Positions 23,441 through 37,005 of a stretch of DNA of 37,005 nt are shown here, piece after piece. This DNA is from Helicobacteraceae bacterium (lineage in GTDB: Bacteria; Campylobacterota; Campylobacteria; Campylobacterales; Sulfurimonadaceae). The stretch is from NCBI GenBank assembly GCA_027023805.1, contig JALVUF010000027.1, forward strand, positions 1 to 37,005. The letters run 5' to 3'. The position numbers and the translations under genes were made by a program. Under the pieces are notes generated by a model. It ran no database searches, was not told where the DNA came from, and saw only the letters and a list, made by a program, of their open reading frames with translations. How positions within the stretch are numbered: position 1 is the stretch's first letter; each line of letters begins with the position of its first letter.

Positions 23441-23659
23441 ATGCTTACACAGATATCAATAACTATCAACAATAAACATTTTGCGTTATCACTAGAAAAA
23501 GATTTTGCAAATTTTCTACAAGATACTTTAACAAAAGATTTGAATATAGATGGAAATAATGATATCAAACATATACTTCAAGCATACATAAGAGCTAAAT
23601 ATGACCTATATATATACGAAACCAAGTGTGGCGAACTCATTGAAAAACTAGATACATAA
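23441..23659 (+). CDS. Small hypothetical protein, possibly ZapA-like
   Basis: A 72-aa protein. A short beta-like start (QISITINNKHFALSL) is followed by helices (DFANFLQDTLTKDL, IKHILQAYIRAKYDLYIYE), the layout of ZapA, an FtsZ-ring stabiliser. Sequence identity to ZapA is not evident by eye, so the call rests on size, layout and the preceding coiled-coil gene. It ends 52 bp before tRNA-Arg and is the last core protein gene before the accessory region. Confidence 0.5.
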   Translation: MLTQISITINNKHFALSLEKDFANFLQDTLTKDLNIDGNNDIKHILQAYIRAKYDLYIYETKCGELIEKLDT

Positions 23660-23711
23660 TCTTTTTGTAAGTTAAATTAGCTATAATTTCACCCTCTTTT
23701 ATAAAGATTAT

Positions 23712-23788
23712 GCGCTCGTAGCTCAGCTGGATAGAGCATTGGTTTGCGGTACCAAAGGTCACAGGTTCGACTCCTGTCGGGCGCACCA
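23712..23788 (+). tRNA. tRNA-Arg, anticodon GCG
   Basis: A complete 77-nt tRNA with encoded CCA. The acceptor stem GCGCTCG pairs with CGGGCGC, the D stem GCTC with GAGC, the anticodon stem TTGGT with ACCAA around the loop TTGCGGT, and the T arm CAGGTTCGACTCCTG is intact. The loop gives anticodon GCG, so it reads CGC/CGU arginine codons. TATAAT at 23682-23687 is a likely promoter element. It marks the border between core genome and accessory DNA. Confidence 0.95.
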
Positions 23789-23856
23789 TTAATAAACCCC
23801 CTAAATAACGAAGTTTCAAAGATAATTTAAAATCAAAAAACAACTTAAGAATTCTA

Positions 23857-23879
23857 TGGGACATACTCTGGGACATACT
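23857..23879. repeat. Tandem 11-bp repeat TGGGACATACT beside tRNA-Arg
   Basis: TGGGACATACT occurs at 23857-23867 and 23869-23879, a 12-bp period, 69 bp after the tRNA. Such repeats near tRNA ends can be arm-type integrase sites. No matching copy was found near the recombinase gene. Confidence 0.4.
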
Positions 23880-23906
23880 TATATTATTTCATTTACAAAA
23901 AAATGA

Positions 23907-23960
23907 TATAATACTTTTAGCGGTCTACTAGGTGCTATTAATTATCTAGTAGCCTGCAAA
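23907..23960 (+). promoter_or_regulatory. TATAAT box followed by a strong 5' hairpin: possible small RNA or leader start
   Basis: TATAAT (23907-23912) is followed after a few bases by a hairpin: CTACTAG (23925-23931) with CTAGTAG (23946-23952). The stem extends outward through GCGG/CTGC and TT/AA with two mismatches (23917-23960). A transcript starting near 23919 would begin inside this stem. No -35 box is clear and no terminator was found. Confidence 0.4.
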
Positions 23961-24290
23961 CAGCATATGATAATGTCAGAGATAAGCTTCACAAGGAGCG
24001 AAAAGTCATTATAAATTATCTCGACAAGATACAAGCAAGTAAATGACAAATTACTGTCTTGCTGAAGATAAAGTCAAAAAGTGCCGTATCGTGCAACAAG
24101 CCTTTTAATTTGTTGCAGCATTCACAGTAAATGTAAGATACTTAAGAGTTGTTAGCTATCATTGATTTATATACATTTGTTAAAATCAATATACAAAGCT
24201 TTTTACTTGATTAGGAGAAAGCAAAGACAACACACTCGGTTGTTGAGAGAAATCTTGAAGAAAATCGACAATAAGAATTAAGGAGTAACC

Positions 24291-24332
24291 ATGGTAAAAA
24301 CTACTTATAAAAAAGGGACCATGATAGCTTAG
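24291..24332 (+). pseudogene. Truncated gene start (13 codons) with strong ribosome site
   Basis: AAGGAG at a good distance precedes ATG GTA AAA, giving MVKTTYKKGTMIA and then TAG. A gene this short with such a start looks like the surviving 5' end of a longer gene. Just downstream, a palindrome (24337-24351) and CTGTTGCACAAAC, which resembles some insertion-sequence ends, may mark the break. A leader peptide is the alternative. Confidence 0.3.
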
Positions 24333-24520
24333 CGAAGGATATAATATATCCTAGATTCTGTTGCACAAACAAAATTATGAACATTGTAATAGGGTCAAAA
24401 AAGGCTTGACTAATGGTAAATAAATAAAATATCTGACTCACACCATTTGCTTATTAGTGAGACGGATTATCAAATAATTGAAATTTTTCAATACTAACAC
24501 AAGTGATTTAACATTATTTA

Positions 24521-25186
24521 TTAAAAAGAGTTCCAGATTTCTTCTGGAGTTCGTCCGTGCTCAAAATCCAAGAGTATCTCTTCTGCTATTAATTTTTTTT
24601 CTTCTTTAACATAGCTTATAAATTCGTGAGTGTTATTATAATTTTTTTCTTGAGGGCTTAAACCAGAAATTCTTAATACAATTTCTTGTCTTAGATACTT
24701 TTTTAACACTTTGGCTTTAACTTTCTTATGATCAATGTAGTTAATTATATCCTTTTCCAGTAATTTCATCATATCTGAAATAGATATTTCAATATTCATC
24801 CAATAATTCCATGTTTCAAGCTCCGAGCATTTATGATTATTAGTATATAGTTTTTTCTTATATATTGTATCAGCAGCAGCCGTAAAATCCCCTTCATCAA
24901 CTTCAGAAAGAAATAGCTCTTTTAACACTTTATCAATATTTTTTACTTTACTAAAAAGATTGTACTTGTTCTTTTTTGTCTTTTTCGCTTTTACATTGGA
25001 AAACATAATTGGATATGCTTCTAAGACTAATTCGATAAATTTATTTAGCTTTTCGTCTAGTGCATCTTCATAATCAACCAGAATATCTTTAAGTAGGTTT
25101 TCTCTAAATACTTCTTTGTCTTCTGCTGTCTCAATTAAATATTTAAAGTGTTCGTATATGTTTGTGAAATTGATATTTTTATCCAA
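24521..25186 (-). CDS. Hypothetical protein of the accessory region (221 aa)
   Basis: A 221-aa soluble, charged protein (many Lys and Glu) with no membrane helix or signal peptide. I recognise no family. It is predicted mostly helical; the notable stretches are YNLFSKVKNIDKVLKELFLSEVDEG, the CSELETWNYWMN region and the closing DFEHGRTPEEIW. The start is TTG at 25186 with GGGAGGGA upstream. It stands alone on the minus strand, divergent from the excisionase-like operon. A -10 box (TATAAT on the minus strand, 25268-25263) would start its transcript within a perfect 18-bp hairpin. Codon use is more AT-rich than in the core genes, by eye. Function unknown; a regulatory or defence role is speculative. 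Confidence 0.7.
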   Translation of the reverse strand: MDKNINFTNIYEHFKYLIETAEDKEVFRENLLKDILVDYEDALDEKLNKFIELVLEAYPIMFSNVKAKKTKKNKYNLFSKVKNIDKVLKELFLSEVDEGDFTAAADTIYKKKLYTNNHKCSELETWNYWMNIEISISDMMKLLEKDIINYIDHKKVKAKVLKKYLRQEIVLRISGLSPQEKNYNNTHEFISYVKEEKKLIAEEILLDFEHGRTPEEIWNSF

Positions 25187-25210
25187 AATTCCCTCCCCTA
25201 TTCAACGGTA

Positions 25211-25258
25211 AACCCAACTAAAGAGTAGATATTAAAATTCCTACTCTTTAGTTGGGTT
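25211..25258 (-). repeat. Perfect 18-bp inverted repeat, predicted 5'-terminal hairpin
   Basis: AACCCAACTAAAGAGTAG (25211-25228) and its exact reverse complement (25241-25258) flank a 12-nt loop. On the minus strand a TATAAT box at 25268-25263 puts the likely transcript start at or next to the outer edge of the repeat, 25-70 nt ahead of the 221-aa gene. The plus-strand T-run after it is short (TTTT). Confidence 0.85.
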
Positions 25259-25515
25259 TTGCATTATAACTCTCTGCATAAGCCATGACTAGGTTCTTAG
25301 TTTAAGAGACTACTTAGACAAGACTAAATATTTTAGAGTACTCTACCTTAAAATGCCAAATTATTATAACACATATGGATTTTTGTTGTAATTTAAATGT
25401 TTGAAATATCAAATATTTGGAAGAAGATTAGATTTTAATTTCGTATAATTTTATCACGCTGATCAGTATTCTTAGGAATTAAAAAAATCTTAAAACGGTA
25501 TATAAGGAATTTATT
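25259..25515. promoter_or_regulatory. Divergent intergenic region with promoters for both sides
   Basis: It holds the minus-strand TATAAT (25263-25268), a 12-bp palindrome TAGAGTACTCTA (25334-25345), and a plus-strand TATAAT (25444-25449) about 65 bp ahead of the excisionase-like gene. The palindrome is a plausible operator for the small DNA-binding protein encoded at 25516. No gene is seen. Confidence 0.45.
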
Positions 25516-25737
25516 ATGATTCAAAATCGTACAAGCAATATAAAACCAGGGCGTTGGCTAACTCCAACGCAACTGGAGCAAGAGTATGGATTATGTGAAA
25601 ACACAATGTCTAAATATCGAATGCAAAAAAAGGTGCCATTTTCTAAAATTGGCACGAAAATCATTCGTTACGACCGTTTGAAAATCGACAAATGGCTTGA
25701 AGATCATGAAGTTATTGGGCTTAGAAATGCAGGTTGA
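25516..25737 (+). CDS. Helix-turn-helix protein, AlpA/excisionase type
   Basis: A 73-aa protein with one MerR-like helix-turn-helix (PF12728 pattern): WLTPTQLEQEYGLCENTMSKYRMQKKVPFSKIG, then a wing with IIRYDRLKIDKWLEDH. Such proteins act as excisionases or small activators in prophages and integrated plasmids. It has a good ribosome site (AAGGAA) and ATG at 25516. It is the first gene of a four-gene plus-strand run and overlaps the next by 11 bp. It may control the divergent promoters upstream and help the recombinase at 27912; both are inference. Confidence 0.8.
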   Translation: MIQNRTSNIKPGRWLTPTQLEQEYGLCENTMSKYRMQKKVPFSKIGTKIIRYDRLKIDKWLEDHEVIGLRNAG

Positions 25738-26215
25738 AGAAATTGTAAAAATCAATGAAGATGAGCAAAATGCTCTTCTTCGAACTTTCGCAAAATTATC
25801 AACAAGTATAAGAGTCGAAATAATGGCAAATCATCGAAAACTCGTATATAAAATAAAACAATTACATAGAGAAACAAGTATCTCAGTTTTGTCTTATTCT
25901 TCTTTATTGCTAGCAATTCAAATTCACAAAACAAACCAGGATAAGGCAAATAGGCTCAATATTTCTAATCTAAGCCTAGATGAGATTCGCGATATCACAT
26001 CAAAAAAAGCAAAAGTCTTTTTAAATAAAAAGTTTCGTAAGCAAACTAAAAGAGAGCGCTTGCTGAGTTATTGGGCTATTGTTAAAACTTTAAAATACGA
26101 TGAAAAATTTAGTTTTCGTAAAATAGCAATCTACTTAAAAAAATACCATAAATGTGATGTTTCGTATAGCTTAATAGCAAAAATATGGGATAATTTAGAA
26201 AATAAAAGGATATAA
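25727..26215 (+). CDS. Hypothetical protein with C-terminal HTH-like segment
   Basis: A 162-aa basic protein. I take ATG at 25727, because the in-frame upstream starts (TTG 25697, ATG 25706) run far into the HTH gene. The middle is helical with a Lys/Arg-rich block (SKKAKVFLNKKFRKQTKRER). The last 45 residues (FSFRKIAIYLKKYHKCDVSYSLIAKIW) resemble a helix-turn-helix as found in plasmid mobilisation or replication accessory proteins. I do not assign a family. It overlaps the HTH gene before it and lies 2 bp ahead of the 161-aa gene, so it is part of one operon. Confidence 0.65.
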   Translation: MQVEEIVKINEDEQNALLRTFAKLSTSIRVEIMANHRKLVYKIKQLHRETSISVLSYSSLLLAIQIHKTNQDKANRLNISNLSLDEIRDITSKKAKVFLNKKFRKQTKRERLLSYWAIVKTLKYDEKFSFRKIAIYLKKYHKCDVSYSLIAKIWDNLENKRI

Positions 26216-26217
26216 AA

Positions 26218-26703
26218 ATGGATGACAATATAAGTAAATACAATGGAGAAATCGACATTAGCCATGTCATTTTAGACCACGGAAAAAACATAAAACTGTT
26301 GCGAGGTTTTGAAATAGTTCCAGATATAGATAAGCGATATATGCGCAATGTTGTAATAATGGTAAGTGATGAGTTCGTCACATCTAATTTAACTGACAGT
26401 ATTCGGCTTAGGGAAGAATTGATTTTATTTACTAGCGGTGATTTGCAAAATAAATTTTTGTATCCAACCACACGAAAGATTAAAAAAGAGACTGTTCATA
26501 GTTTAGTATTGACTCTACCATCAAAAAAAGAAGTCTTCATCGGGAGAGCTGAAGCAAGAACTATGGTTACAATATGGAATATGGCAATGCAAGGGTATTC
26601 ATTTTCTAGACTTTCAGAATTTGAAACAAGTCAATCTTTGGAAACTTGGACAAGAGCTTTGGAGCGTAACGGGTATCTTGAAATAGATTCAATGGAGTAT
26701 TAG
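26218..26703 (+). CDS. Hypothetical protein (161 aa) of the accessory operon
   Basis: A 161-aa soluble protein with no recognised domain, membrane helix or signal peptide. The first half is beta-rich (ISHVILDHGKNIKLLRGFEIV, NVVIMVSDEFV). The second half ends in helices with conserved-looking aromatic residues (RTMVTIWNMAMQGYSFSRLSEF, TWTRALERNGYLE). AAAGGAT precedes ATG. The stop codon is directly followed by the ATG of the membrane-anchored gene with no gap, which suggests that the two proteins are made together and may interact. Function unknown. Confidence 0.7.
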   Translation: MDDNISKYNGEIDISHVILDHGKNIKLLRGFEIVPDIDKRYMRNVVIMVSDEFVTSNLTDSIRLREELILFTSGDLQNKFLYPTTRKIKKETVHSLVLTLPSKKEVFIGRAEARTMVTIWNMAMQGYSFSRLSEFETSQSLETWTRALERNGYLEIDSMEY

Positions 26704-27537
26704 ATGTTGCTCATATCCATATTAATTATACCACTTATTGCTTATGTTATATTTGTTAGCATAGGTAATAAAAAAAGAGAACATATAGAAGAAGAAAAGA
26801 AAGAAATTGAAGAGGAAGTCAAGCCAAAAGAGATTGAAAAATCAAAAGAAATTATGCTATATTTTCAAACAGATTCAATTAAAATTTCTGCATATTCTTC
26901 ATATGCTTTTCGTGGCTTTAAAGCTAGTAATTTTTATAAAAAGATAGTAGCTAATAGATTATTTATTGATGAGCCATTTCATACCACTTTTTTTCAGTTA
27001 TTACAGATATATGATCAAACAGAGTCGTGGGTTAAAAGTTTTAAAACGAAAGAAATTAAACTAAAAATTAGAATGAAAAATGGAAAGTTTGCGGAGGGAA
27101 CTTCTTTTAAAGTCTATTCAGTTTCTAAAATAATTTTTGATTTTCTTGGTAATATTTTAGAATATTTTGATAATCGCAGATATTCAAAAAATGATCAAAA
27201 AAATGTCATACTAACTGCTTTAATTTGGAAACTTGATCTTGTAATAGAACTAAAATATCTTTGTCAAAAGAATCTAAACAACATAGATCAAAGAGAATGT
27301 TTGGCTAAAAAGCTATTAATACATTATGAGAAAAATCATGAAGTGTTTCAAATTCTACATATGCTAGAGGTAAAACATGAAAATTTACTTTTTGTATTCG
27401 AATCATATAATAAAGCATTGAAGTGGCAGCGAGAATATCCCTATGTCCAAAAAGAGGGGGAGCAATATTCAGCCATACGATTAGAAGACTTAGCGTCAAT
27501 AAATTCAAAAAAACTAATTTCATTAGATGCTTTTTAG
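26704..27537 (+). CDS. Hypothetical membrane-anchored protein (277 aa)
   Basis: A 277-aa protein with a single N-terminal membrane helix (LLISILIIPLIAYVIFVSIG, residues 2-21). A highly charged Lys/Glu linker follows (about 23-50), then a soluble domain of about 220 residues facing the cytoplasm, as judged from the basic residues after the helix. No known domain is recognised. The segment IILTALIWKLDLVIELKYLC-like near 160-180 is hydrophobic but looks like a buried helix. It is the last gene of the operon, followed 62 bp on by a terminator. It could be a membrane-tethered effector or part of a transfer complex; neither is shown. Confidence 0.68.
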   Translation: MLLISILIIPLIAYVIFVSIGNKKREHIEEEKKEIEEEVKPKEIEKSKEIMLYFQTDSIKISAYSSYAFRGFKASNFYKKIVANRLFIDEPFHTTFFQLLQIYDQTESWVKSFKTKEIKLKIRMKNGKFAEGTSFKVYSVSKIIFDFLGNILEYFDNRRYSKNDQKNVILTALIWKLDLVIELKYLCQKNLNNIDQRECLAKKLLIHYEKNHEVFQILHMLEVKHENLLFVFESYNKALKWQREYPYVQKEGEQYSAIRLEDLASINSKKLISLDAF

Positions 27538-27599
27538 CGTGTATCACTGTGTGGACAACTTGTGTATTTTGTTGTTTACGCATAAAAATTCTTCTGGCA

Positions 27600-27640
27600 T
27601 TGCAAAAGCCTATTATGAAGGCTCTTGCAACAATTTTTTT
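27600..27640 (+). terminator. Terminator of the four-gene accessory operon
   Basis: TTGCAAAAGCC (27600-27610) pairs with GGCTCTTGCAA (27620-27630), with one A-C mismatch, around a 9-nt loop. AACAA and a run of seven T follow. Confidence 0.8.
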
Positions 27641-27911
27641 CTAGAATAGAAACTTAAAAAAACATTTATAACATACTCAAAAAAAACTTTATCTAAATTA
27701 CACAATAAATCGTGTTATAGTTTGATATTAAATTTTTAAGACAACAATGAAATTTATAGGTGGAGCCCAGATAATTTACGAGTTATCGTACCATCTTAAT
27801 CAAAAGAGCCGAGTTTCAGCATCTTGAAAAAATAGCAGATTGACTTAACACCTTTGCCGAGAATGGCGGCTTAAACCATTTGAAATTTAAAGAAGGAAAT
27901 TATATCGAACC
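27641..27911. other. Region between operon terminator and recombinase
   Basis: It is AT-rich, with no intact gene. From about 27747 it holds the decayed coding-like sequence described separately. AAGGAA at 27893-27898 is 13 nt ahead of the recombinase ATG, a rather long spacing. Confidence 0.5.
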
Positions 27912-27948
27912 ATGCGAGGCAGCGTATATTATCAAACAGCAGAATTGA
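27775..27948 (+). pseudogene. Decayed small ORF with in-frame TGA upstream of the recombinase
   Basis: One frame reads YRTILIKRAEFQHLEKIAD, TGA (27841-27843), then LNTFAENGGLNHLKFKEG and EPCEAAYIIKQQN to TGA at 27946-27948. It looks protein-like but has no start codon and one internal stop. A second frame from ATG 27747 (26 aa) joins the first if one base is shifted near 27805. I read it as a broken small gene whose end overlaps the recombinase start by 37 nt. A chance open frame is possible. Confidence 0.3.
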
Positions 27949-28832
27949 CAAAAACAATCTTTCAAAAATGTGCAAAAAAAGAGGATAAGATTAATCCACA
28001 ACACTTGCATTATCAAAAAATTTCAAGCTACAACACAATGAAGAGTTATCGTGACATCTGGAATAATCTTTTTAACTATTTAAGAGAACATTTGAACATA
28101 AAAGATTGTGAACAGATTACTTCAGAACATATCATGGCTTACATTGATTATAAAATTGAGTACTATCCGTCAAAGCAATATTTACAAAAAATAATTTCTG
28201 CACTTGGCAAATTAGAGATAGCATTAAATAAGTATTCAAAAGCAAAATATAGCCTCCCAATTATATATGACTTTAGCATAAGAACTTCGCTACTAAGTGA
28301 AGCTGTAAATCTAAAATTAGTTGCAGATTATTATCATAATCGAACATATGTTAATCCTAAAGAATTAATTAAAAATTTATCAAATTCAAAACACCAGATT
28401 GCTGCAAAAATGGAACTAGAAGGAGGCGCGAGAATTGAAGCTTGTACATTAATAAAAGAAGAGCAGTTGTTGGGAACAACAATAGATGAAATAACAAAAA
28501 TCAAAAAGGGAAAAATTCATACTAAAGAAAAAGGTGGAAAAGTTGGGGATGTGCTTATTTCAACAACAACTTATGAATCTTTACTTCAAGAGATAAAAAA
28601 AAATAATATTTTCAAAATCAATCGAGCCAAATATATGACAGATATTCGTGAAACTGCAAAAAAATTAAATATAACCCCAGAGGGTAGTCATGGGCTACGC
28701 TGGAATTTTGCAAAAAATAGATTGTTTGAGTATGCTAATGCTGGCTATACATATGAACAATCATTGCTTTTAGTAAGCAAAGAAATGAAGCATAATCGCG
28801 CATCAATTACAGAACACTATATTGGCGGTTGA
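27912..28832 (+). CDS. Tyrosine recombinase / integrase
   Basis: A 306-aa site-specific recombinase. The catalytic set is complete: Arg174 (GGARIEACTL), Lys210 in the beta-hairpin (KEKGGK), His260 and Arg263 (SHGLRW), His294 (MKHNRAS) and the nucleophile Tyr303, only three residues from the C-terminus. Residues 35-115 form the helical core-binding (SAM-like) domain. It should cut and join DNA at short attachment sites to move the surrounding element. It lies 4.1 kb from tRNA-Arg, so that tRNA need not be its target. A decayed ORF overlaps its start. Its true start could differ, because the nearest ribosome site is 13 nt from ATG. Confidence 0.88.
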   Translation: MRGSVYYQTAELTKTIFQKCAKKEDKINPQHLHYQKISSYNTMKSYRDIWNNLFNYLREHLNIKDCEQITSEHIMAYIDYKIEYYPSKQYLQKIISALGKLEIALNKYSKAKYSLPIIYDFSIRTSLLSEAVNLKLVADYYHNRTYVNPKELIKNLSNSKHQIAAKMELEGGARIEACTLIKEEQLLGTTIDEITKIKKGKIHTKEKGGKVGDVLISTTTYESLLQEIKKNNIFKINRAKYMTDIRETAKKLNITPEGSHGLRWNFAKNRLFEYANAGYTYEQSLLLVSKEMKHNRASITEHYIGG

Positions 28833-29142
28833 TTAAATTGATTACAAAAATTAATGAAAACTAGTTCAAGGATTTAAGTTTCGAACCTCCTTTTTTCTAA
28901 CAGATCTCTTCTATCAGAACTCATAAGAATCTAAGAATATCCTATTAGAATTAAAAAATTAAGTCTAAAAAATCAGGCATAGAAATTGCCAAAAATCATA
29001 TAATATCTGCATACAAATTGCTGTGTGCAGGGAGCCGAAACTTGCATGTACAGGATTCTTTTGAATCCTTGCACAGAGTAATTTAATGGCTAAGGTTTGG
29101 CTCCCGCTAGCTTTTTATTCTTAATAAATTCGCTAAAAAGAT
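28833..29142 (+). promoter_or_regulatory. Rep leader region with nested hairpins
   Basis: No gene is visible. TATAAT lies at 28999-29004 or nearby. A long-range pair GGGAGCC (29030-29036) / GGCTCCC (29099-29105) encloses a perfect hairpin AGGATTC-TTTT-GAATCCT (29052-29069). CTGTGTGCAGG before it can also pair with CCTTGCACAG after it, so alternative folds are possible. A structured, possibly antisense-controlled leader is usual for plasmid rep genes of the ColE2 class. The part 28833-28990 shows nothing notable. Confidence 0.5.
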
Positions 29143-30273
29143 GTGTACGATTTCTTACAGAAAAACCAGCTCAAAAAAACTCTTAATCGATTCAATAAAA
29201 TAAGACTTTACCATAATTATGGATTTATGCATATTTTGCCAATTAAGTATCTCATAAAACATCCTAAGAAATATAGACAAATACAACTTAATACTGATAC
29301 GCATTTTAACGCCATTATAATGGATATAGATGATGAAGATCTACTGACAGAATGGAATGCAGTAGGTTTGCCAACTCCAAGTATCCAAACATTAAATCAA
29401 AATAATAATAAAGCACACCTGATTTGGTTACTAAACATTCCAGTATCTAAAAAAAACAAAAAAGCTGTGAAATATTATAGAGCAATTGTCAATAGCATAA
29501 AACTACTCATCAATGCAGATAACGCATACCAAAACCATCAAACAAAAAACTTTCTTAACACAAAGCTTTATAGAGTGACATACAATGATCTTGCATACGA
29601 CTTAGATGATTTTAAAGAGTTCATTATAAAGGATGCACCTTATAAAAAAATTTATAGCAATACGCTGGCAGAGCATGAAAGTACAGGAAGTAGACATATA
29701 GATTTATTTAATCAGCTTAGAGCGTATGGCTACCAAATTGCAAAGCATGGAGATTTACAAGGAAAATTAGAAAATCGTGCTGAATTAATAAATCAACAAT
29801 TTGATACACCCATCAAACCAAAAGCAATTGTTAAATCAGTTTTAGGTTTTTGTGAAGAAAATAAAAATAATTTTAAAATATCTAATATTGAAAGAACGGG
29901 GGCAATGAAATTTAAAAAAATCAACAATCTTTCTTCAGAAGATTATAAACAAGAAGTAAAAAAACGTCAAAAGGAATCAGCAGCGAGAACAAAAGATATA
30001 AAACGGATTAAAACTGCGGTTAAAATTAAAGTAGCCATCAGTATATTGTTACGTAATAAAATAAAGTTAACTTATTTCAACCTTGCAAAACAAGCCAAAG
30101 TCTCACTCTCTACAGTAAAAAGATATTCTAAAATCGTCAAAATTTTAGGTCAAAAAGCAAACAGTGTCACTAGCTCTATAAGGGTCATAGTGCTTTATGT
30201 TGAGGAACGAAACATTTATCCTCTAAAGCACTGCAGCAAAATACCATGGTTTATTACAAAAGCTCCGACATAA
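29143..30273 (+). CDS. Plasmid replication protein, Replicase + PriCT-1 type
   Basis: A 376-aa Rep protein. Residues about 25-170 match the Replicase family (PF03090-like pattern): AIIMDIDDED acidic motif near 57-66, NKAHLIWLLNIPV, and FLNTKLYRVTYND. About 180-250 is a PriCT-1-like helical domain (GSRHIDLFNQLRAYGYQIA). The end carries a helix-turn-helix (FNLAKQAKVSLSTVKRYSKIV). Such proteins are origin-specific primases of ColE2-type plasmids. The start is GTG at 29143, with only a weak ribosome site. Together with parA-RHH at 34-35 kb it marks an integrated or relic plasmid backbone. Family call good; activity unknown. Confidence 0.8.
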   Translation: MYDFLQKNQLKKTLNRFNKIRLYHNYGFMHILPIKYLIKHPKKYRQIQLNTDTHFNAIIMDIDDEDLLTEWNAVGLPTPSIQTLNQNNNKAHLIWLLNIPVSKKNKKAVKYYRAIVNSIKLLINADNAYQNHQTKNFLNTKLYRVTYNDLAYDLDDFKEFIIKDAPYKKIYSNTLAEHESTGSRHIDLFNQLRAYGYQIAKHGDLQGKLENRAELINQQFDTPIKPKAIVKSVLGFCEENKNNFKISNIERTGAMKFKKINNLSSEDYKQEVKKRQKESAARTKDIKRIKTAVKIKVAISILLRNKIKLTYFNLAKQAKVSLSTVKRYSKIVKILGQKANSVTSSIRVIVLYVEERNIYPLKHCSKIPWFITKAPT

Positions 30274-30312
30274 GACTATAGCATATTACTTTTTTGGGAA
30301 AGAGTACCTTTA

Positions 30313-31138
30313 TCAATATAAGAATCCAAACAACCAAAGTGGTATTACGTTATCATAGCCGCTTTCAATATCATCTATTGCTAAGTAAGCATCATTAAGA
30401 CCAACTATTTGTTTGCCATCTTTAGACTTGCCACCAACTTCTAAAATAATCTTATCATCTACCAAAAAGTCACACTGATGATGGTAATGTACCTGATGAT
30501 CTGTTAAGAGCTGAGAGACCATAAAACTCTCACGCACAGCCCCTACATCTGCCTTGGCACAAAGCACCGCAAAGAGGTTTGGGTTATTGAGAAGTACTTT
30601 ATTTGGAATTTGTATGGTTTTATACCCTTTAGAACTTCTGACAATATTAAGGAGTGAACCTTTTTGCATGTAGTCCAGGTATTTAGAGAGTGTACTCCAT
30701 GAGACACCTGCACTAGCAGATAGCTTAGACTTGTTTACTTCATAGGGGGTAGTACTGCAAAGCATATAGAGTACCTTTTTAAGCGCGTTTTTCATAGCTT
30801 ATGTAAAAATAGAAGCTAAGTCACTCTCTATCGTAGTATTGACTACCTCTAGCAGTCTATCACTGTAGGAACTTATACTCTCTTTAAAAAATGGATATAC
30901 TCCATACTCCAAATAGTTAGCAAAATGCTCCAGTGGTTTTATTTCACTCAAAATATCTACTACGATATCTTCGTGTAAAGTGATTATTTCTTCAAGTGTG
31001 TAGGCTCTAAGATGGGCGATATTTTTAAGCGATAAATATTCTCTAAATGGAAAGTACCGGCATATTGTATATCAATGCCCTCCTAGAGAGATCACCTATG
31101 TCGTATCTAGTATTTATTGCAGAAGAGCCAGAAAAAAC
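30313..31138 (-). pseudogene. AAA ATPase with DUF4143 domain, C-terminal part (broken)
   Basis: Read on the minus strand from the IS edge: VVFSGSSAINTRYDIGDLSRRA, then a frameshift near 31047, then PFREYLSLKNIAHLRAY and the DUF4143 segment PLEHFANYLEYGVYPFF. TAA at 30799-30801 interrupts the frame, after which the rest continues in the same frame from 30795 to 30313 (KKVLYMLCSTTPYEVNKSKL, DFLVDDKIILEVGG). The last part is the nuclease-like C-terminal domain. The family is a P-loop ATPase of unclear cellular role, common in mobile and defence-rich DNA. Two lesions plus an insertion show that it is dead. 30313-30795 alone is not a real gene. Confidence 0.8.
31131..31138. repeat. Left target-site duplication of the IS21 element
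   Basis: GAAAAAAC, identical to 33816-33823 at the other end of the element. Confidence 0.85.
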
Positions 31139-31144
31139 TGCAAA

Positions 31145-31234
31145 TTTCACAAACATTCTTCCACTCCTTTCACTTTTAACCTTCCACCGATTTCACAAAC
31201 ATTCTTCCACCCTTTTCACTTTTTGCCTTCCACT
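31145..31234 (+). repeat. Duplicated transposase-binding repeat in the left IS21 end
   Basis: TTTCACAAACATTCTTCCAC starts at 31145 and again at 31191, a 46-bp period. The flanking CCTTTCACTTTT...CCTTCCAC is also repeated. A related inverted copy lies in the right end (about 33755-33813). This is the multiple L/R repeat layout of IS21 ends. Confidence 0.85.
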
Positions 31235-31360
31235 TTTTGAGTGTTTTGTGAAAAGATTTTGGAATTTGAGTTGGCGAAATATTTGACCTTTCAAACAAGC
31301 TAAATCTACCATTTTATTATGGTGCTAAACTTTGTCTATCTCAATAGAGATGGAGAAAAT

Positions 31361-32908
31361 ATGAAAGGATTAAGCATGTTGAAGATCAAAGAGATTTTAC
31401 GACTAAAATGTGAAGCTAAACTATCCAACAGAAAGATAGCGAGAGCTTTAAATATCAGCCATAGTGTAGTAAACCAATACACTAAAGAGTTCAAACTCAC
31501 AAACAAAAAGTATAAGGATATCATCTCCCTTGGAGACAAGGAGATTCTTGCACTTTTTAAATCGACCCGCACTACAGAGAGTAAGTACCCAGTTCCAGAC
31601 TTTGCGAAAGTACATGTAGAACTTAGAAACAAGATAGTAACACTGACACTCTTACATGAAGAGTACATTGAAAAGTGTCCTAACAAACAAGGCTACGGCT
31701 TTACATGGTTCTGTAACCGCTATAAATCTTACTCTAAAAAAATAAATCCCTCCATGCACCTTACCCACAAAGCTGGCGAAAAAACATTTATAGACTTTAG
31801 TGGTAAAACAGTAAATATAGTAAACCATACCAATGGTGTCATAACTAAAGCAGAACTCTTTATAGCAGTTCTTCCTGCATCAGGCTTTGCATTTGTAAAA
31901 GCAATAGCCTCACAGAAGAAAAGAGATTTCATTGATGCACATGCAGACATGTTTACATACTTTGGTGGCGTCACTGAACTACTTGTCCCTGACAACCTCA
32001 AGAGTGCTGTTACAAGAGCTGACAACTATGACCCAGATGTCAATCCTGATTATGCAGCAATGGCAAGACATTGTGGAAGTGCTGTTATGCCTACTCGTGG
32101 ATATAAACCTAAGGACAAGGCTCATGTAGAACTTGCAGTAAAACTTGTACAGAGATGGATACTAGCACGACTCAGAAACTTTACCTTCTTCTCTATAGCA
32201 GAGCTCAACAAAGAGATAGAGAGACTTATGCCTCTTTACCATGACAAGATTATGAAACATCTAGATTGTAGCAGAAGAGAGCTCTTTCTTAAGCTAGATA
32301 AACCAGCACTGATGCCACTGCCTGCGACAAGATATGAGTACAAAGAGTTTAAGCTACTCAAGGTGAGTAAGGATTATCATATACAGTTAGAACATAACTT
32401 CTACTCAGTCCCTTACCAACTTATAGGCAAAAAAGTAGAGGTGTGGTTTGGAGCAAAGATTGTAACTATTACCTATGAGGGAAAAACAGTAGCCACACAT
32501 CCTAAACTACTTCATAAAGGTGCCTACTCAACCAATAAAGAGCATATGGCATCTTCTCATCAGAAGTATCTTGAGTGGTCCCCTGGCAGAATTATGAACT
32601 GGGGACTTACTATCGGTACAGAGACAGCAAAGCTTTTTAAAAATATTATGGATTCTCGTCCCCATCCAGAGATGGGATACAGGAGCTGTTTAGGAATCAT
32701 CAGAGAGTATAAAAAGTATCAAGAAAAAGAGTACACAGAGGAGCATTTAGAGATTATCTCTACTATGGCTATCTCTAAACATTACTACAAAGTAGGTCAG
32801 GTAAAAGATTTACTCAAATCTTACACACCAAAAGATAGTGATGAGAGTGCATCACTTATCGCTCTTACAACACACAAGAATATCAGAGGTGCTGAGTATT
32901 ACAGCTAA
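31361..32908 (+). CDS. istA: IS21 family transposase IstA
   Basis: A 515-aa DDE transposase. It has an N-terminal helix-turn-helix (LSNRKIARALNISHSVVNQYTK), the integrase core with Asp in FIDFSGKTVNI, Asp in LVPDNLKSAV and Glu in HVELAVKLVQRW, and a C-terminal Mu-type beta domain (HNFYSVPYQLIGKKVEVWF). It cuts and joins IS ends. I use ATG at 31361 (GGAG upstream); in-frame starts extend to 31319 without a ribosome site. istB follows after 47 bp. The gene looks intact, so the element may be active. Confidence 0.95.
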   Translation: MKGLSMLKIKEILRLKCEAKLSNRKIARALNISHSVVNQYTKEFKLTNKKYKDIISLGDKEILALFKSTRTTESKYPVPDFAKVHVELRNKIVTLTLLHEEYIEKCPNKQGYGFTWFCNRYKSYSKKINPSMHLTHKAGEKTFIDFSGKTVNIVNHTNGVITKAELFIAVLPASGFAFVKAIASQKKRDFIDAHADMFTYFGGVTELLVPDNLKSAVTRADNYDPDVNPDYAAMARHCGSAVMPTRGYKPKDKAHVELAVKLVQRWILARLRNFTFFSIAELNKEIERLMPLYHDKIMKHLDCSRRELFLKLDKPALMPLPATRYEYKEFKLLKVSKDYHIQLEHNFYSVPYQLIGKKVEVWFGAKIVTITYEGKTVATHPKLLHKGAYSTNKEHMASSHQKYLEWSPGRIMNWGLTIGTETAKLFKNIMDSRPHPEMGYRSCLGIIREYKKYQEKEYTEEHLEIISTMAISKHYYKVGQVKDLLKSYTPKDSDESASLIALTTHKNIRGAEYYS

Positions 32909-32955
32909 ATCACTATATAGTCAACTATATAACAATCCAAAGATAAGGACAAATT

Positions 32956-33699
32956 ATGCCATTACAAGAACTTACAGAGAAACTTAAATTAGGCGCTTTT
33001 TACACAGCTTACATAGAACAAGAGACACAACCTGCTTACAGTGAACTCCCATTCCAGAAGAGAGTGCAGATGCTTCTTGAAGCAGAGGAGTTAGACAGAG
33101 ACAATAAGAAGCTCCAGAGACTTATCAAGCAGGCTAAACTTCACGAGAGAGGGGCTAGTATCAGTGAGATAAATTTTACACCTGATAGGAATTTAGATAA
33201 AAGTGTTCTACTTGATTTAGCAGGCGGGAACTATCTGAAATACTTTAGGAATATTATTCTCACGGGTCCGACTGGATCAGGAAAATCATATATCGCTCAA
33301 GCATATGCAAACAAAGCAATGAGTATGGGTTATAGTGCTCTGTATCTGAGAGTACCAAGACTCATGCAACACTTACAAGCGATAAGAGGAGATGAAGAGT
33401 ATCTCAAATACTTAGCAAGACTCAAACGAATCAACCTGCTGATACTTGATGATTTCGGAGTGAGTCCACTTAAAGCTGCAGAAGCCAGAGACCTTCTAGA
33501 GATTGTTGAGGACAGAGTGAATCAATCATCTGTTATTGTGACATCTCAACTTGCCATACAAGATTGGCATGGGTATCTGCACAATGCAACTATAGCAGAT
33601 GCCATCTTAGATAGGATTGTACATAATGCTTACAAAATAGAATTTCAAGCTGATGGAGATTCCCAACGCAAGATAAATGCTAAGAAAATGATGAAATAG
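32956..33699 (+). CDS. istB: IS21 helper ATPase IstB
   Basis: A 247-aa AAA+ ATPase related to DnaC. Walker A GPTGSGKS is at 104-111, Walker B ILDDFGVS at about 160-167, and the sensor segment VIVTSQLAIQDWHGYL follows. The C-terminus IVHNAYKIEFQADGDSQR is standard. It selects and remodels target DNA for IstA. AAGGAC precedes ATG. The protein is intact and full length. The right IS end begins about 55 bp after the stop. Confidence 0.95.
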   Translation: MPLQELTEKLKLGAFYTAYIEQETQPAYSELPFQKRVQMLLEAEELDRDNKKLQRLIKQAKLHERGASISEINFTPDRNLDKSVLLDLAGGNYLKYFRNIILTGPTGSGKSYIAQAYANKAMSMGYSALYLRVPRLMQHLQAIRGDEEYLKYLARLKRINLLILDDFGVSPLKAAEARDLLEIVEDRVNQSSVIVTSQLAIQDWHGYLHNATIADAILDRIVHNAYKIEFQADGDSQRKINAKKMMK

Positions 33700-33815
33700 G
33701 AGAAACCATTCTTCCACTCACTCTCATTTATGCTACAATTTTACATGCTTGTTTGAGACTCAAAAAAGTGGAAGGCTTGGAGTGAAACGGGTGGAAGAAT
33801 AAAGTGAAATATGCA

Positions 33816-33823
33816 GAAAAAAC
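33816..33823. repeat. Right target-site duplication of the IS21 element
   Basis: GAAAAAAC, identical to 31131-31138. Confidence 0.85.
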
Positions 33824-33965
33824 CACTTGTAGATCTGTAAAGTCATAAATAGCTTTAATGTGTGCTGAAAAATCTTTGACCTTATGTATCTCATCAAGAA
33901 TGAGTAGCTTTCCTCCATGTGCATAAAAATCATCAGCTATTTCGTAAATGTTTGCATTGACAACA
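33816..33965 (-). pseudogene. AAA ATPase with DUF4143 domain, Walker-B part (broken)
   Basis: The minus strand reads NANIYEIADDFYAHGGK, LLILDEIHKVKDFSAHIK and AIYDFTDLQVVFS, ending at the IS junction. LLILDEIHK is the Walker B motif. Coding-like sequence stops near 33965, so the N-terminal 60 or so residues with the P-loop are gone. The loss is separate from the IS insertion and may mark an older recombination point in the plasmid backbone. It continues the pseudogene at 30313-31138. Confidence 0.8.
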
Positions 33966-34063
33966 ATGAAATGTATTTAATAGTTTAAATATTATAGTAT
34001 AAAATAAATTTAATAACAAATGGGTTAGAGTTTTTATCTAGGTGTTTTATTTTCATAAAATTA

Positions 34064-34315
34064 CTAAATAAATTTTACCAAACTAATCTTGCACAAAGCA
34101 CTAACACTAATTCCAAACTCTTTAGCAACTGATTCTATTTTAACTTTTTCATCTTTCGTTACATTTATAAAAATTTGCTCACTTGCTTTCTCACTGGCAT
34201 CCTTTTTAGGTCTGCCACCCTTGTTTTTTTTAGCCTTGCTCATATCTGCTGATTTGATAAAACTTGTCTCTTTTTCAGTAATATCTAAATCGTCTAATTC
34301 TTTAATCTTTGCCAT
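34064..34315 (-). CDS. Ribbon-helix-helix partition/regulator protein
   Basis: An 83-aa protein. A charged N-terminal tail (1-45, with KNKGGRPKKDA) precedes a ribbon-helix-helix fold (about 48-83: a QIFINVT strand, then KDEKVKIESVAKEF and VSALCKISLVKF helices). RHH proteins next to ParA serve as the centromere-binding partner (ParG/Arc type) and as repressor of the operon. It starts 29 bp after the parA stop, with a 12-bp palindrome in the gap. The tail could stimulate ParA ATPase, as in ParG. Good family confidence; the exact role is inferred from context. Confidence 0.82.
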   Translation of the reverse strand: MAKIKELDDLDITEKETSFIKSADMSKAKKNKGGRPKKDASEKASEQIFINVTKDEKVKIESVAKEFGISVSALCKISLVKFI

Positions 34316-34329
34316 ATTAATCCTTGTAA

Positions 34330-34341
34330 AATACTAGTATT
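34330..34341. promoter_or_regulatory. Palindrome AATACTAGTATT between parA and the RHH gene
   Basis: A perfect 12-bp palindrome containing AGTATT. The same half-site occurs in the inverted repeat upstream of parA (35017-35049). It is a likely extra RHH binding site. Confidence 0.5.
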
Positions 34342-34344
34342 AAA

Positions 34345-34998
34345 CTAATTATTTAATAGTTTATAAATCTCTTTTGTAAACTCTTTTATCTCTTCTTGAG
34401 CTTGACCTTTTTTATTGTACTCTTTCACTGTAAGTCCATCACCATAGCTATTTTTATAGTCTGCTCTTGAGTACAATGTAGTATTTAAAAGATTAAAGTA
34501 GTTAGGTTTTTCTTTAATGTACTCTTTTAGATCTTTGAGCTTTGATTTGGATCTGCTGTCAACATTATTAAGTAGGACATTTGTTTTTATTTTTATGTCC
34601 AATGCTTCACTTGCGTCTTTGAGTATTTTTCTAAATTTTTGCAGTCCAAATATCTCTATTTGAGAGATACCTACAGGAGTAATAATTATATCTGCTTTAA
34701 TGAGTGCTGTTCTATTAATATCACTATCATAACCACCACTATCGATAATGAGAAGATTGCTTTTATCAGCTTTATAATGACTCAAAAACTCACCTAAATT
34801 TATATCGTTTTGAGTGACACATTTAATTGTCGGAAGGCTTTCACCCTTTCGGAGTTGATTAAAAAGAATAGCAGAGTGTTGAGAATCAAGATCAAGTATA
34901 GCTGTGTCTTTATATTTCTTTTGAATCTGGTATGCAAAATTAATGGCGACGGTACTTTTACCAACTCCACCTTTTTGATGGGAGAATAAAACTATCAT
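34345..34998 (-). CDS. parA: ParA partition ATPase
   Basis: A 217-aa ParA/MinD-family ATPase. The deviant Walker A KGGVGKST is at residues 9-16, followed by AILDLDSQHSA (A') and LLIIDSGGYDSD (Walker B region). It lacks the N-terminal DNA-binding extension of P1-type ParA, so it belongs to the short type Ib class, which pairs with small RHH proteins like the one downstream. It moves plasmid copies over the nucleoid. TATAAT and AAAGGAG precede the ATG at 34998, and the promoter overlaps an inverted repeat. With rep at 29-30 kb it completes a plasmid maintenance set. Confidence 0.9.
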   Translation of the reverse strand: MIVLFSHQKGGVGKSTVAINFAYQIQKKYKDTAILDLDSQHSAILFNQLRKGESLPTIKCVTQNDINLGEFLSHYKADKSNLLIIDSGGYDSDINRTALIKADIIITPVGISQIEIFGLQKFRKILKDASEALDIKIKTNVLLNNVDSRSKSKLKDLKEYIKEKPNYFNLLNTTLYSRADYKNSYGDGLTVKEYNKKGQAQEEIKEFTKEIYKLLNN

Positions 34999-35016
34999 AA
35001 AAACTCCTTTAATTAG

Positions 35017-35049
35017 AGTATTATAATAGTTTTATACTTGTATAATACT
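35017..35049 (-). promoter_or_regulatory. Operator / candidate centromere repeats at the parA promoter
   Basis: AGTATTATA (35017-35025) and TATAATACT (35041-35049) form a perfect 9-bp inverted repeat. A second one, TTATAC (35032-35037) / GTATAA (35040-35045), is nested inside. The minus-strand -10 box TATAAT lies within the repeat, so binding of the RHH protein should repress the operon. Confidence 0.6.
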
Positions 35050-35212
35050 TATTATTATGCAATAACTATTTAAAATTCTTAATCTTTCAAAGTACGCTAA
35101 TCGCAAAATAACTAAAAAATAATGATACTTGCATTTAAAGTAAAATATATATCTGATGCTCAAATAATACAGTCAGCTAATATCTATTTACCTTCGTTTT
35201 TAAATAAATTTT

Positions 35213-36532
35213 TTATTTTGCCCCTACTTTTGCAAGTACCACTTTGATGGTTTTTATCAGTATCACAAAATCAGCCCACAGTGACCAGTTTTTTATGTAC
35301 CAAACCTCTAGCTCATTTCTTTCTTTGAAAGTAAGATTGTTTCTGCCACTCACTTGCCACAGTCCCGTTATACCTGGTCTTACTTTAAGTATAAAGTATT
35401 TATTGTCACCTAGTTTTTCAGATTCACTTAGCATGTATGGTCTTGGACCGACTAAGCTCATATCTGCTTTGAGAACATTAATGACTTGAGCTAATTCATC
35501 TAAAGAGGTGGTTCGTAGAAATTTACCTACTTTTGTGATGCGGGGATCATTTTTGTATTTATGAAACTTTTTGTAATATTCTATCTCTTGAGGGTGGGTT
35601 TTGAGGTATTGGCTTAGCAGTTTTTGAGAATCTTCAAACATTGTTCTGTATTTGTAGCATAAAAAAATTTCTTCATCCTTCCCGAGTCTCTCTTGTCTAA
35701 AAAAGACACTCCCCTTAGAGTCCAATTTGATAGAAATAGCTATAAAAGTATGGATGATTAAAAAGAAAGGTGAAATCATCAGTGCAACAAAAAAATCAAA
35801 TCCATTTTTAATCCAAATATTCTTTTTTATCAAAAGCTTATTTTGTATCTGGATTGTATTGTACCTGATGTTAGAGTACTCCATAATATTTGAGCTTGTG
35901 AAGTTGACACTTGTTGCATATGGCACGACATAAACCTCGTCATTGTCATTTAGATATTTTTCTATCTTTGCATTCATTTTTTCAGGCTCAAGAGATTTTG
36001 ACGAGATTATGACCATACTATAGTTTGTTCGAGAGGGTTGTATCCCAAGATACCAATTTTTCTCAAACTCGTTTTTTAAGGTAACAACTTGACTTGCATC
36101 CCCGATGATAAGTACTCGCTTTTTAAAAAATGAAAAACTATAAAGAACTCTTTTTATCAGCCTTTTAGCAGCAGGAAGCAGCAGCATAGCAAATGAAAAA
36201 TAGAGCGTGATAAAAAGACGAGAATATTCTAAAGAGGTTTTTTGTAAAGTCAACAGTGCCAGCACTATAAAATAAGCTAAAAAAAGTGACTTTATCATCT
36301 TATATGTCTCTTGCCAAAAATCATATCGCAGAGTATATATCTTTTCATAAAACATAATGGCAATAGCAATGATAATGACAAATGAAAATCTTTGCAACGA
36401 AAGCTCATTAAACACAGGGACACGTGTATTACTGAGTTCAACTCTTACATATTGGGTAAGATAAAAAGTACCAATAAGTACAAGAATATCAATAATAATA
36501 ATAGCAAAGTTTAAAAAATATTTTTTTATCAT
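35213..36532 (-). CDS. Undecaprenyl-phosphate sugar phosphotransferase (exopolysaccharide initiation)
   Basis: A 439-aa polyprenol-phosphate hexose-1-phosphate transferase of the WbaP/WcaJ type. About four N-terminal membrane helices lie within 1-130. A CoA-binding-like middle domain (RVLIIGDASQV) follows, then another hydrophobic segment near 245-270. The C-terminal catalytic domain has SVFFRQERLGKDEEIFLCYKYRTM, then LRTTSLDELAQVINVLKADMSLVGPRP and RPGITGLWQVSGRNNL. It transfers sugar-1-phosphate to the lipid carrier, the first step of exopolysaccharide or O-antigen assembly. It lies just beyond the par genes and probably starts a surface-polysaccharide locus. GalU in the core may supply precursors. 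Confidence 0.92.
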   Translation of the reverse strand: MIKKYFLNFAIIIIDILVLIGTFYLTQYVRVELSNTRVPVFNELSLQRFSFVIIIAIAIMFYEKIYTLRYDFWQETYKMIKSLFLAYFIVLALLTLQKTSLEYSRLFITLYFSFAMLLLPAAKRLIKRVLYSFSFFKKRVLIIGDASQVVTLKNEFEKNWYLGIQPSRTNYSMVIISSKSLEPEKMNAKIEKYLNDNDEVYVVPYATSVNFTSSNIMEYSNIRYNTIQIQNKLLIKKNIWIKNGFDFFVALMISPFFLIIHTFIAISIKLDSKGSVFFRQERLGKDEEIFLCYKYRTMFEDSQKLLSQYLKTHPQEIEYYKKFHKYKNDPRITKVGKFLRTTSLDELAQVINVLKADMSLVGPRPYMLSESEKLGDNKYFILKVRPGITGLWQVSGRNNLTFKERNELEVWYIKNWSLWADFVILIKTIKVVLAKVGAK

Positions 36533-36550
36533 TTATATCTAAAAGTATTT

Positions 36551-36676
36551 TTAAGCTGTAATCTTGTTGTATTTTTCATCATTAGTGTTGAAATTATCAT
36601 CCAACACTCCAATAAATTGGTTAAATACACCTTCTTGTACTTCATCTTTCGATATTCCTAATTCTAATATCGCCAA
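36551..36676 (-). CDS. Small hypothetical ORF, doubtful
   Basis: 41 codons from TTG at 36676 (AAAGGAG directly adjacent, closer than usual) to TAA. The peptide LAILELGISKDEVQEGVFNQFIGVLDD is protein-like. It is in the same frame as the HEPN-like gene and separated from it only by TGA (36698-36700) and a few codons, so it may be the tail of a once longer protein or a separate small gene. No family recognised. Confidence 0.25.
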   Translation of the reverse strand: MAILELGISKDEVQEGVFNQFIGVLDDNFNTNDEKYNKITA

Positions 36677-36697
36677 CTCCTTTGTTCTTCTCTTTAC

Positions 36698-37005
36698 TCA
36701 TAGTTGAGTCTTTGATTTTATTGTTTGATATATATCTATTAATATATCTTTTTTATAATACAATTTATTTATAACTTCAGATGTTTCTTCTGGGTCATCG
36801 TCATAATTATGCGCTAAATCATTCCTATCATTTCTTAATTCTCTCCATACATTAACATCAACCAACAATTCTAGTTTCTCTAATCTATTTAATATATCAA
36901 TAAAAGGTTTATTTTCAATTTTTTCTTCCAAATACAACAAAATGGTTTTAAATAGTTTTTCTCCAATAGCATCTTGAAGTTTAGAAAATCTAAACAAAAA
37001 CTGAT
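36698..37005 (-). CDS. HEPN-like protein, N-terminus beyond the window
   Basis: The frame is open to the window edge; a TTG at 36997 is unlikely to be the true start. The visible 100 residues have the helical HEPN pattern: LFRFSKLQDAIGEKLFKTIL, then WRELRNDRNDLAHNYDDD, in which R-x(4-6)-H is the RNase-type motif. Such proteins often pair with a small nucleotidyltransferase (MNT) as toxin and antitoxin. If a partner exists it would be upstream, outside the window. Nothing like an MNT gene is seen downstream. Confidence 0.65.
   Translation of the reverse strand, partial: QFLFRFSKLQDAIGEKLFKTILLYLEEKIENKPFIDILNRLEKLELLVDVNVWRELRNDRNDLAHNYDDDPEETSEVINKLYYKKDILIDIYQTIKSKTQL

Follow-up and report, generated by a model that had tools for sequence, protein, structure and literature searches.

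Plasmid-type maintenance genes in an island at tRNA-Arg

The window, i.e., the whole stretch of DNA analyzed here, is the entire contig C27 (37,005 bp) of a Helicobacteraceae genome (Campylobacterota; the family that includes Sulfurimonas) that comprises 1.64 Mb across 73 contigs. We consider it probable that this contig carries part of an integrative element, or island, which is inserted at the 3′ end of a tRNA-Arg(GCG) gene and bears a maintenance module of the plasmid type; SXT/R391 and SGI1 are comparable elements. The module consists of a replication gene (rep), a partition gene (parA), and the gene of a probable ribbon-helix-helix (RHH) partner and, judged from its sequence, is real and probably functional. 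We favor this reading because the 3′ end of the tRNA gene is duplicated, with an integrase gene beside the second copy; because a delimited island of a relative (G150) carries Rep, ParA, and RHH as well; and because a related locus (L096) combines genes C, D, E, and F of the island with the par pair, distant homologues occur on plasmids, and the module appears to be under purifying selection. In the labels used here, L### denotes locus stretches, G### genomes, and C# contigs; L025 lies on contig C3 of the source genome.

The island starts at the 3′ end of the tRNA-Arg(GCG) gene (23712..23788, + strand; ARAGORN). The stretch to the left of and including this gene (23532–23800) is kept at the same tRNA in relatives, for example on the 2.03-Mb contig of G008 (72%; L032), and because this short flank is conserved there, the left side was taken as chromosome. 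A second copy of the tRNA end was found on contig C3 (3,193 bp), where L025:3067–3130 matches window positions 23744–23806 with 95% identity over 64 alignment columns; a tyrosine integrase gene (L025:1803–2912; Phage_integrase, 50.4 bits) adjoins this copy. From these sequences, we take the copies on C27 and C3 to be the attL and attR of one island. The integrase and the duplicated tRNA 3′ end expected of a tRNA-type integrative element are thus both present, though on two unjoined contigs. Beside attL lies the direct repeat gggacatactctgggacatactt (23857..23880, +), which was read directly and is a putative integrase arm site. A similar repeat was found near attR (approximately L025:2939–2962), both ends have a doubled gggacatact repeat by reading, and related repeats also occur downstream of tRNA-Arg in L027 and L037. 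An earlier reading of this DNA from the letters alone (the sequence-only reading) had proposed mapping the outer borders of the block 29143–34998; these borders lie outside that block, at the attL described here and at the matching attR on the unjoined C3.

Searches for further border evidence gave negative results. The end of C27, searched in its own genome for a neighboring contig, was unique and gave no join; the start of C3, searched in the same way, matched C18 at 94% identity and C46 over 30 bases, from which no join can be inferred. When 134 bases around attR were used to search for an empty site, 18 of 40 relatives matched, covering only the tRNA end and a few bases at most. A megablast search of 23600–37005 against plasmids yielded no match.

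Rep and its leader

The rep gene (29143..30273, +) encodes a ColE2-type protein that matches the Pfam family Replicase (PF03090) with 66.8 bits (cut-off 26). With tblastn, matches were detected in 1,704 plasmid records; among the 30 matches listed, identity was 24–30% and most were annotated as replication initiation proteins. These results uphold the plasmid-type Rep that the sequence-only reading had proposed here. Three pattern matches to Rep were found in viral contigs, none of them confirmed, and the search against PDB gave a weak match to a PrimPol AEP domain (E 0.19). Folding and conservation point to a structured leader upstream of rep (28973..29142, +), possibly a copy-control region: 28985–29142 had z = −3.50 relative to 200 shuffles, none of which was as stable, and 28973–29083 (111 bases) is 76% identical to the G150 island. 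A SAM_alpha match from Rfam that touches this leader (17.3 bits; gathering threshold 36) was taken as chance.

Partition genes

Type Ib partition systems are typified by ParF-ParG of TP228. The parA gene of the window (34345..34998, −) encodes a ParF-like protein of 217 amino acids (aa) that matches AAA_31 with 53.3 bits (cut-off 27). Its P-loop starts at residue 9, and the protein thus has no N-terminal helix-turn-helix (HTH). The best PDB matches, tied at E 1.7e-10, were ParF (4dzz) and a chain named ParA (5u1g); the NCBIfam model ParA_partition gave 111 bits, below its cut-off of 180. The gene of the probable RHH-type partner (34064..34315, −; 83 aa) lies downstream of parA and has homologues in L096, in G150, and on the plasmid pATS2; the partner gene sits downstream of parA in four homologous loci. 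The ParA and RHH proteins are 92% and 93% identical to those of L096, 77% and 78% identical to those of the G150 island, and 57% and 51% identical to their rep-adjacent counterparts on pATS2.

Two sets of repeats accompany the pair, each with four overlapping matches to AGTATWATACWAGT: operator-like repeats between parA and the RHH gene (34322..34349) and operator- or centromere-like repeats upstream of parA (35017..35049), of which the same four are present in L096 and two in G150. Allowing ≤ 2 mismatches, 8 of 9 matches in the window, 8 of 9 in L096, and 3 of 4 in the G150 stretch fall at the par locus; the pattern was derived from these same sequences, so its rarity is no independent test. 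As in ParF-ParG of TP228, a small Walker ParA closest to ParF, a small downstream partner, and putative upstream repeat sites occur together; in contrast to that system, the partner here resembles known RHH proteins just weakly. The size of ParA, its ParF-like best matches, the gene order, and the repeats support an assignment of the locus to type Ib, with a weak RHH call. What the sequence-only reading had called a type Ib locus with an RHH partner holds for ParA and the gene order, and with less weight for the partner and the repeats.

Selection on the module

Rep, ParA, RHH, and the recombinase F are all full length, and conserved motifs were found in F, ParA, and RHH. By the NG86 method, nonsynonymous (dN) and synonymous (dS) divergence from G150 was 0.18 and 2.28 for Rep, and 0.16 and 1.42 for ParA; relative to L096, the corresponding values were 0.038 and 0.228 for ParA and 0.030 and 0.504 for RHH. 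The resulting dN/dS of these four comparisons was ∼0.06–0.17, ratios that are rough because the large dS values are near saturation. For RHH versus G150, YN00 gave dN 0.18 and dS 1.87. At the level of coding sequence, these values indicate purifying selection on Rep, ParA, and RHH.

Relatives of the island

Homologues were tallied with hidden Markov models (HMMs) in 99 loci, comprising the window, L028, L074, L076–L091, and the best 80 of 98 F loci; the same region is sometimes present twice (e.g., L077 and L099), and flanks are ≤ 10 kb and often shorter. In G150, whose genome is a single contig of 2.15 Mb, tRNA-Leu(UAG) on one side and a repeat of the tRNA 3′ end on the other bound a 36.7-kb island. 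This island has an integrase at its far end and Rep at its near end (73%), together with ParA (77%) and RHH (78%); three blocks of its DNA, among them part of the rep leader, are 74–76% identical to the window. By reading, it also has a type I restriction system and a serine recombinase. The G150 island lacks C, D, and E, and its F homologue is distant (28%). Within it, L074:7500–14222 matches TraG_N with 97.2 bits and a TraN-like model with 18.5 bits (below the cut-off of 23), which is reminiscent of SGI1. The G150 TraN was found in 6 of 298 class genomes and not in the source genome, and a resemblance to SGI1 is not established for the window; TraG, TraN, and two proteins of G147 (795 and 235 aa) had no relatives beyond their own regions among the loci compared.

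A 20.9-kb island in G376 occupies the same tRNA type as that of G150 and carries C, D, F, and ParA (37%), with no Rep match. A further match to the tRNA end, approximately 2.9 kb past attR of this island (G376:C1 137267), appears from its context to belong to a further tRNA gene. The genes of L096 are arranged C-D-E-F-RHH-ParA, with the par pair directly after F and no rep; F and par also occur together in L087, L105, L110, and L120, of which L087 is similar to L105. Furthermore, an HMM search with nine proteins, from which the E-values derive, detected distant homologues of F (27%), C, ParA, and RHH on pCORI-2, a free circular plasmid of 7,822 bp.

Recombinase F and its upstream motif

Gene F (27912..28832, +) encodes a tyrosine recombinase and was found in 39 of 397 class genomes. 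Among 14 homologues, the active-site residues R174, H260, R263, H294, and Y303 are invariant and K207 nearly so; no PDB match was obtained at E 0.01, and matches to XerC/XerD were weak only. The sequence-only reading was correct in placing a recombinase next to the module, but the island's integrase is likely the C3 enzyme beside attR and not F. In 80 F loci from named records (flanks ≤ 10 kb), we found C in 60, a C3-type integrase in 22, D in 18, E in 11, ParA in 9, RHH in 4, and Rep in 3. Four loci (L092, L100, L114, and L118) have F proteins 60–64% identical to that of the window in metagenome-assembled genomes labeled Woesearchaeota, Gracilibacteria, Lutibacter, and Rhodobacterales, for which binning errors are likely.

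A pseudoknotted leader motif (27755..27882, +) lies upstream of F. In a pattern search, 57 of the 79 distinct regions upstream of F contained the motif around GATTGACTTAACA; the 22 regions without it belong to distant homologues and to some close ones (L056, L060, L097, L109, L114, and L122). The pseudoknot test used a slightly different pattern (with L106 and without L138), which again selected 57 regions. In 27 of these, an H-type pseudoknot with a common geometry was counted by hand, among sequences that are not independent, and between 0 and 2 of 40 shuffles scored as high; the remaining regions gave another geometry or no such pseudoknot with the same program. We aligned 14 of 16 contiguous leaders (13 distinct), excluding L100 (misplaced start) and L115 (long spacer). 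In this alignment, 97.1% of cells were paired, versus 88.8% in shuffles and ≤ 50% in slid controls, and 14 cells were changed on both sides; the paired cells, the double-change cells, and the covariation score were each reached by 0 of 500 shuffles. Helix 1 is invariant, and the pair-count and pair-type measures were not above shuffles (186 of 500 and 490 of 500). A GGTGG/CCATC-type pairing was dropped by eye, as its columns barely vary or fail to pair.

A model built from the 14 leaders, which encodes only the 5-bp second helix, matched 18 of 397 class genomes, all of which also carry F; some of these genomes supplied training sequences. Of its 29 places, 26 are within ∼350 nucleotides upstream of F, one is 1.7 kb upstream (G395), and two are in G146, with no F found nearby; one copy in that genome (C47, 15585–15865) has no adjacent F found. 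Rfam scans of selected stretches revealed no family that matches the motif, and the sub-threshold matches within 27400–29200 miss it. The motif could act either as RNA or as folded DNA, and it is a testable candidate for a new regulatory or recombination motif.

Other genes of the island

From left to right, the visible part of the island contains the gene of a 221-aa protein, an excisionase-like HTH gene, C, D, E, the motif-bearing leader, F, the rep leader, Rep, the ATPase remnants with an insertion sequence of the IS21 family, RHH, ParA, a sugar transferase gene, and a HEPN-like gene. The 221-aa protein (24521..25186, −) has no match in Pfam, PHROG, PADLOC, or NCBIfam. The following protein (25516..25737, +) matches HTH_17 (excisionase/AlpA-like) with 29.8 bits (cut-off 27) and the PHROG category excisionase and regulator at 3.7e-6. 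Gene C (25697..26215, +) encodes an HTH-like protein which, by iterated HMM search, is found near F in 71 of the 99 loci. The product of gene D (26218..26703, +) was modeled by AlphaFold2 with a mean confidence (pLDDT) of 87.7 and is predicted to have a PUR/Whirly-like fold: in VIA-align, PUR-alpha (Z 7.6) and Whirly proteins ranked highest, the best Foldseek E-value was 0.0069, and both scores fall short of a safe fold match. On this model, we tentatively place D in the PUR/Whirly/MRP-like fold typical of single-strand nucleic-acid binders. Gene E (26704..27537, +; pLDDT 76.7) has by reading an N-terminal helix resembling a membrane anchor, and Foldseek gave no match for it at E 0.001.

The IS21-family element (31139..33815, +) lies within the module, between rep and the par pair. 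Its membership is documented by NF033546 (248.2 bits; cut-off 160), IstB_IS21 (191.7 bits), the inverted repeat I1, and the 8-bp target duplication GAAAAAAC; istA (31319–32908) and istB (32956–33699) look intact. It interrupts an AAA/DUF4143-type ATPase gene, of which C-terminal remnants lie to its left (30313..31138, −; DUF4143, 22.2 bits, below the cut-off of 28.1) and a further remnant to its right (33816..33985, −; by reading, with an approximate right end). The interrupted gene is truncated in other ways too, and homologues of the fragment occur in 8 of the 99 loci, the window included. The gene is broken, as the sequence-only reading had said, but it is cargo split by IS21 and not part of the plasmid backbone.

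At the right end, a bacterial sugar transferase gene (35213..36532, −; Bac_transf, 210.5 bits) is probably cargo. The last gene (36540–37005, at the contig end) is similar to HEPN/nucleotidyltransferase-substrate genes with sub-threshold Pfam matches, and is possibly half of a toxin–antitoxin pair. Contig C3 also carries an O-antigen ligase gene (Wzy_C, 72.2 bits) with a 61% identical paralogue on C18. L025:1–118 matches C18 of the source genome (G000:C18:18423–18540) at 94%, whereas the ligase proteins are just 61% identical, suggesting that a polysaccharide gene at the far end of the island is mosaic or duplicated. Pfam scans of the visible part recognized no genes of integrative conjugative or mobilizable elements (relaxase or mating apparatus), the right half of the island lying outside the window, and no capsid or packaging gene was found in the 20 open reading frames (ORFs) scanned between 20455 and 37003.

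Discussion

The arrangement described here is of a known kind, and its combination of Rep, Par, and recombinase differs from those of the systems compared. The integrative and conjugative elements SXT/R391 have a functional plasmid-like partition locus that can stabilize an integrative element, and other such elements with ParA/ParB homologues are also listed (PMC4489591). The window shares with them a chromosomally integrated element with a plasmid-like partition locus, a putative one here, and differs in having a ParF-type ParA-RHH pair and a ColE2-type Rep instead of an actin-type ParM-like system and oriT-initiated replication (PMC4489591). Moreover, SXT/R391 is conjugative, whereas no conjugation genes were seen in the visible part of our island. 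With SGI1, the likeness, which is functional only, consists in int/xis, a rep of its own with a structured translation-control region, and a resolvase (PMC7826253), to which the related G150 island adds TraG_N and, below the cut-off, a TraN-like protein. SGI1 RepA is, however, related to IncN2/N3 and uses an iteron oriV (PMC7826253), whereas the window Rep matches another family and no tra genes were seen in the window. In ColE2 replicons, an antisense RNA exerts its control in the region upstream of rep (PMC5304414); the same Rep class and a structured upstream region are found here inside a tRNA island. The leader motif of F resembles the STAXI RNA motif in being pseudoknotted and near integrase genes; STAXI occurs as two to three repeats and lies near several kinds of DNA-handling genes (PMC2864571), whereas the F motif occurs once, in some cases with a spacer dividing it, and almost always immediately upstream of F. 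The stretches scanned with Rfam had no match to STAXI, and the available parts of two articles on recombinase-linked RNA motifs (PMC2864571 and PMC11109978) do not contain our motif.

These observations suggest the following life cycle, in which the island may excise and replicate. The C3 integrase beside attR most likely integrated the island at the 3′ end of tRNA-Arg(GCG) and, with the excisionase-like protein, could free it as a circle. Rep, controlled by its structured leader, would copy this circle, and ParA and its probable RHH partner would act on the repeats around parA in partition and autoregulation, stabilizing the circle until reintegration. F and the accessory protein C would probably resolve circle multimers or help recombination, and rep would stay quiet during integration. 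When helped by a helper plasmid, SGI1 RepA drives plasmid-like replication, and the authors of that work hypothesize that active RepA does severe harm when oriV lies in the chromosome (PMC7826253). By analogy, and because of this hypothesis, the concern that a working rep could interfere with chromosome replication seems reasonable.

Several points weigh against the reading of an integrated element with a working maintenance module. Contigs C27 and C3 are unjoined in the assembly and the island runs off C27, with its right half outside the window; two islands in tandem, instead of one, are possible. The rep gene is rare, being found in 7 of 397 class genomes at E 1e-6, the source genome included, and in 3 of 80 F loci within the flanks. 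The RHH assignment is weak (best PDB match the RHH protein CopG, E 0.12; a NikA-like match of 21.5 bits and RHH_7 with 15.7 bits, both below the cut-off of 27), and apart from that NikA-like match no relaxase was detected in the Pfam scans of the 20 ORFs. In G150, the par repeats are no more numerous than expected by chance (four matches in 50 of 200 shuffles), and the rep of pCORI-2 belongs to another family, Rep_3.

The rarity of rep among relatives, together with the IS21 element and the broken ATPase gene inside the block, would suit a fossil, i.e., a plasmid that was once integrated and is now decaying, with rep and par out of use. We regard this as unlikely: the full-length Rep, ParA, RHH, and F proteins, the conserved motifs, the low dN/dS of Rep, ParA, and RHH, the part of the rep leader kept in G150, and the par repeats kept in L096 all speak against decay. 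We likewise give little credence to a chance junction of two elements, one with rep and F and the other with par. L096 has par beside C-D-E-F and no rep, G150 has rep and par without C-D-E and with a distant F, and many loci have F without rep or par; Rep and par are nevertheless together in G150, and F and par are together in the five loci named above.

The presence at one tRNA gene of an integrase, a protein resembling AlpA, and a Rep of primase type is reminiscent of phage-inducible islands, so that the tRNA site, the integrase, the HTH_17 protein, and the weak PrimPol match of Rep could also be read as a phage satellite or prophage remnant. This is improbable, given the lack of capsid and packaging genes in the scanned ORFs (though the right half could hold phage genes), of a confirmed Rep relative in viral contigs, and of phage-structural PHROG types: nine window proteins and the C3 integrase gave integration/excision, DNA-binding, DNA-invertase, ParA-like, or unknown types. 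The plasmid-type partition pair and the TraG_N protein of the G150 relative also argue against it. Finally, the contig breaks off within the island and the assembly consists of 73 contigs, as might be expected if the contig were itself a plasmid or a misassembly; the conservation of the left flank and tRNA-Arg at the same tRNA, including on the 2.03-Mb contig of G008, makes this highly improbable. The view that the block lies inside a chromosome, already taken in the sequence-only reading, is supported by that flank, and its preference for an integrative plasmid over a phage is supported by Rep-ParA-RHH in the delimited G150 island, by par beside F in L096, and by the distant homologues on pCORI-2.

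Beyond the reading of an integrative element at tRNA-Arg, we raise a broader idea tentatively: Campylobacterota may harbor a family of tRNA islands, as yet without a name, that live as integrated plasmids, with a replicon of their own, ParF-type partition, and a C-D-E-F cassette under a new pseudoknotted RNA control (or with a folded-strand recombination site); protein D might recognize this RNA or strand. The G150 island, which has TraG/TraN-like genes, would exemplify members that may parasitize conjugative plasmids in the manner of SGI1. In a literature search with partial coverage (titles and the beginnings of abstracts), no description of such islands in Campylobacterota was found. Our results suggest that selection maintains replication and partition genes of plasmid type in chromosomal islands of Campylobacterota, and would thus extend the blurred line between plasmids and integrative elements, as seen in SXT/R391 and SGI1, to another phylum with different types of Rep and Par.

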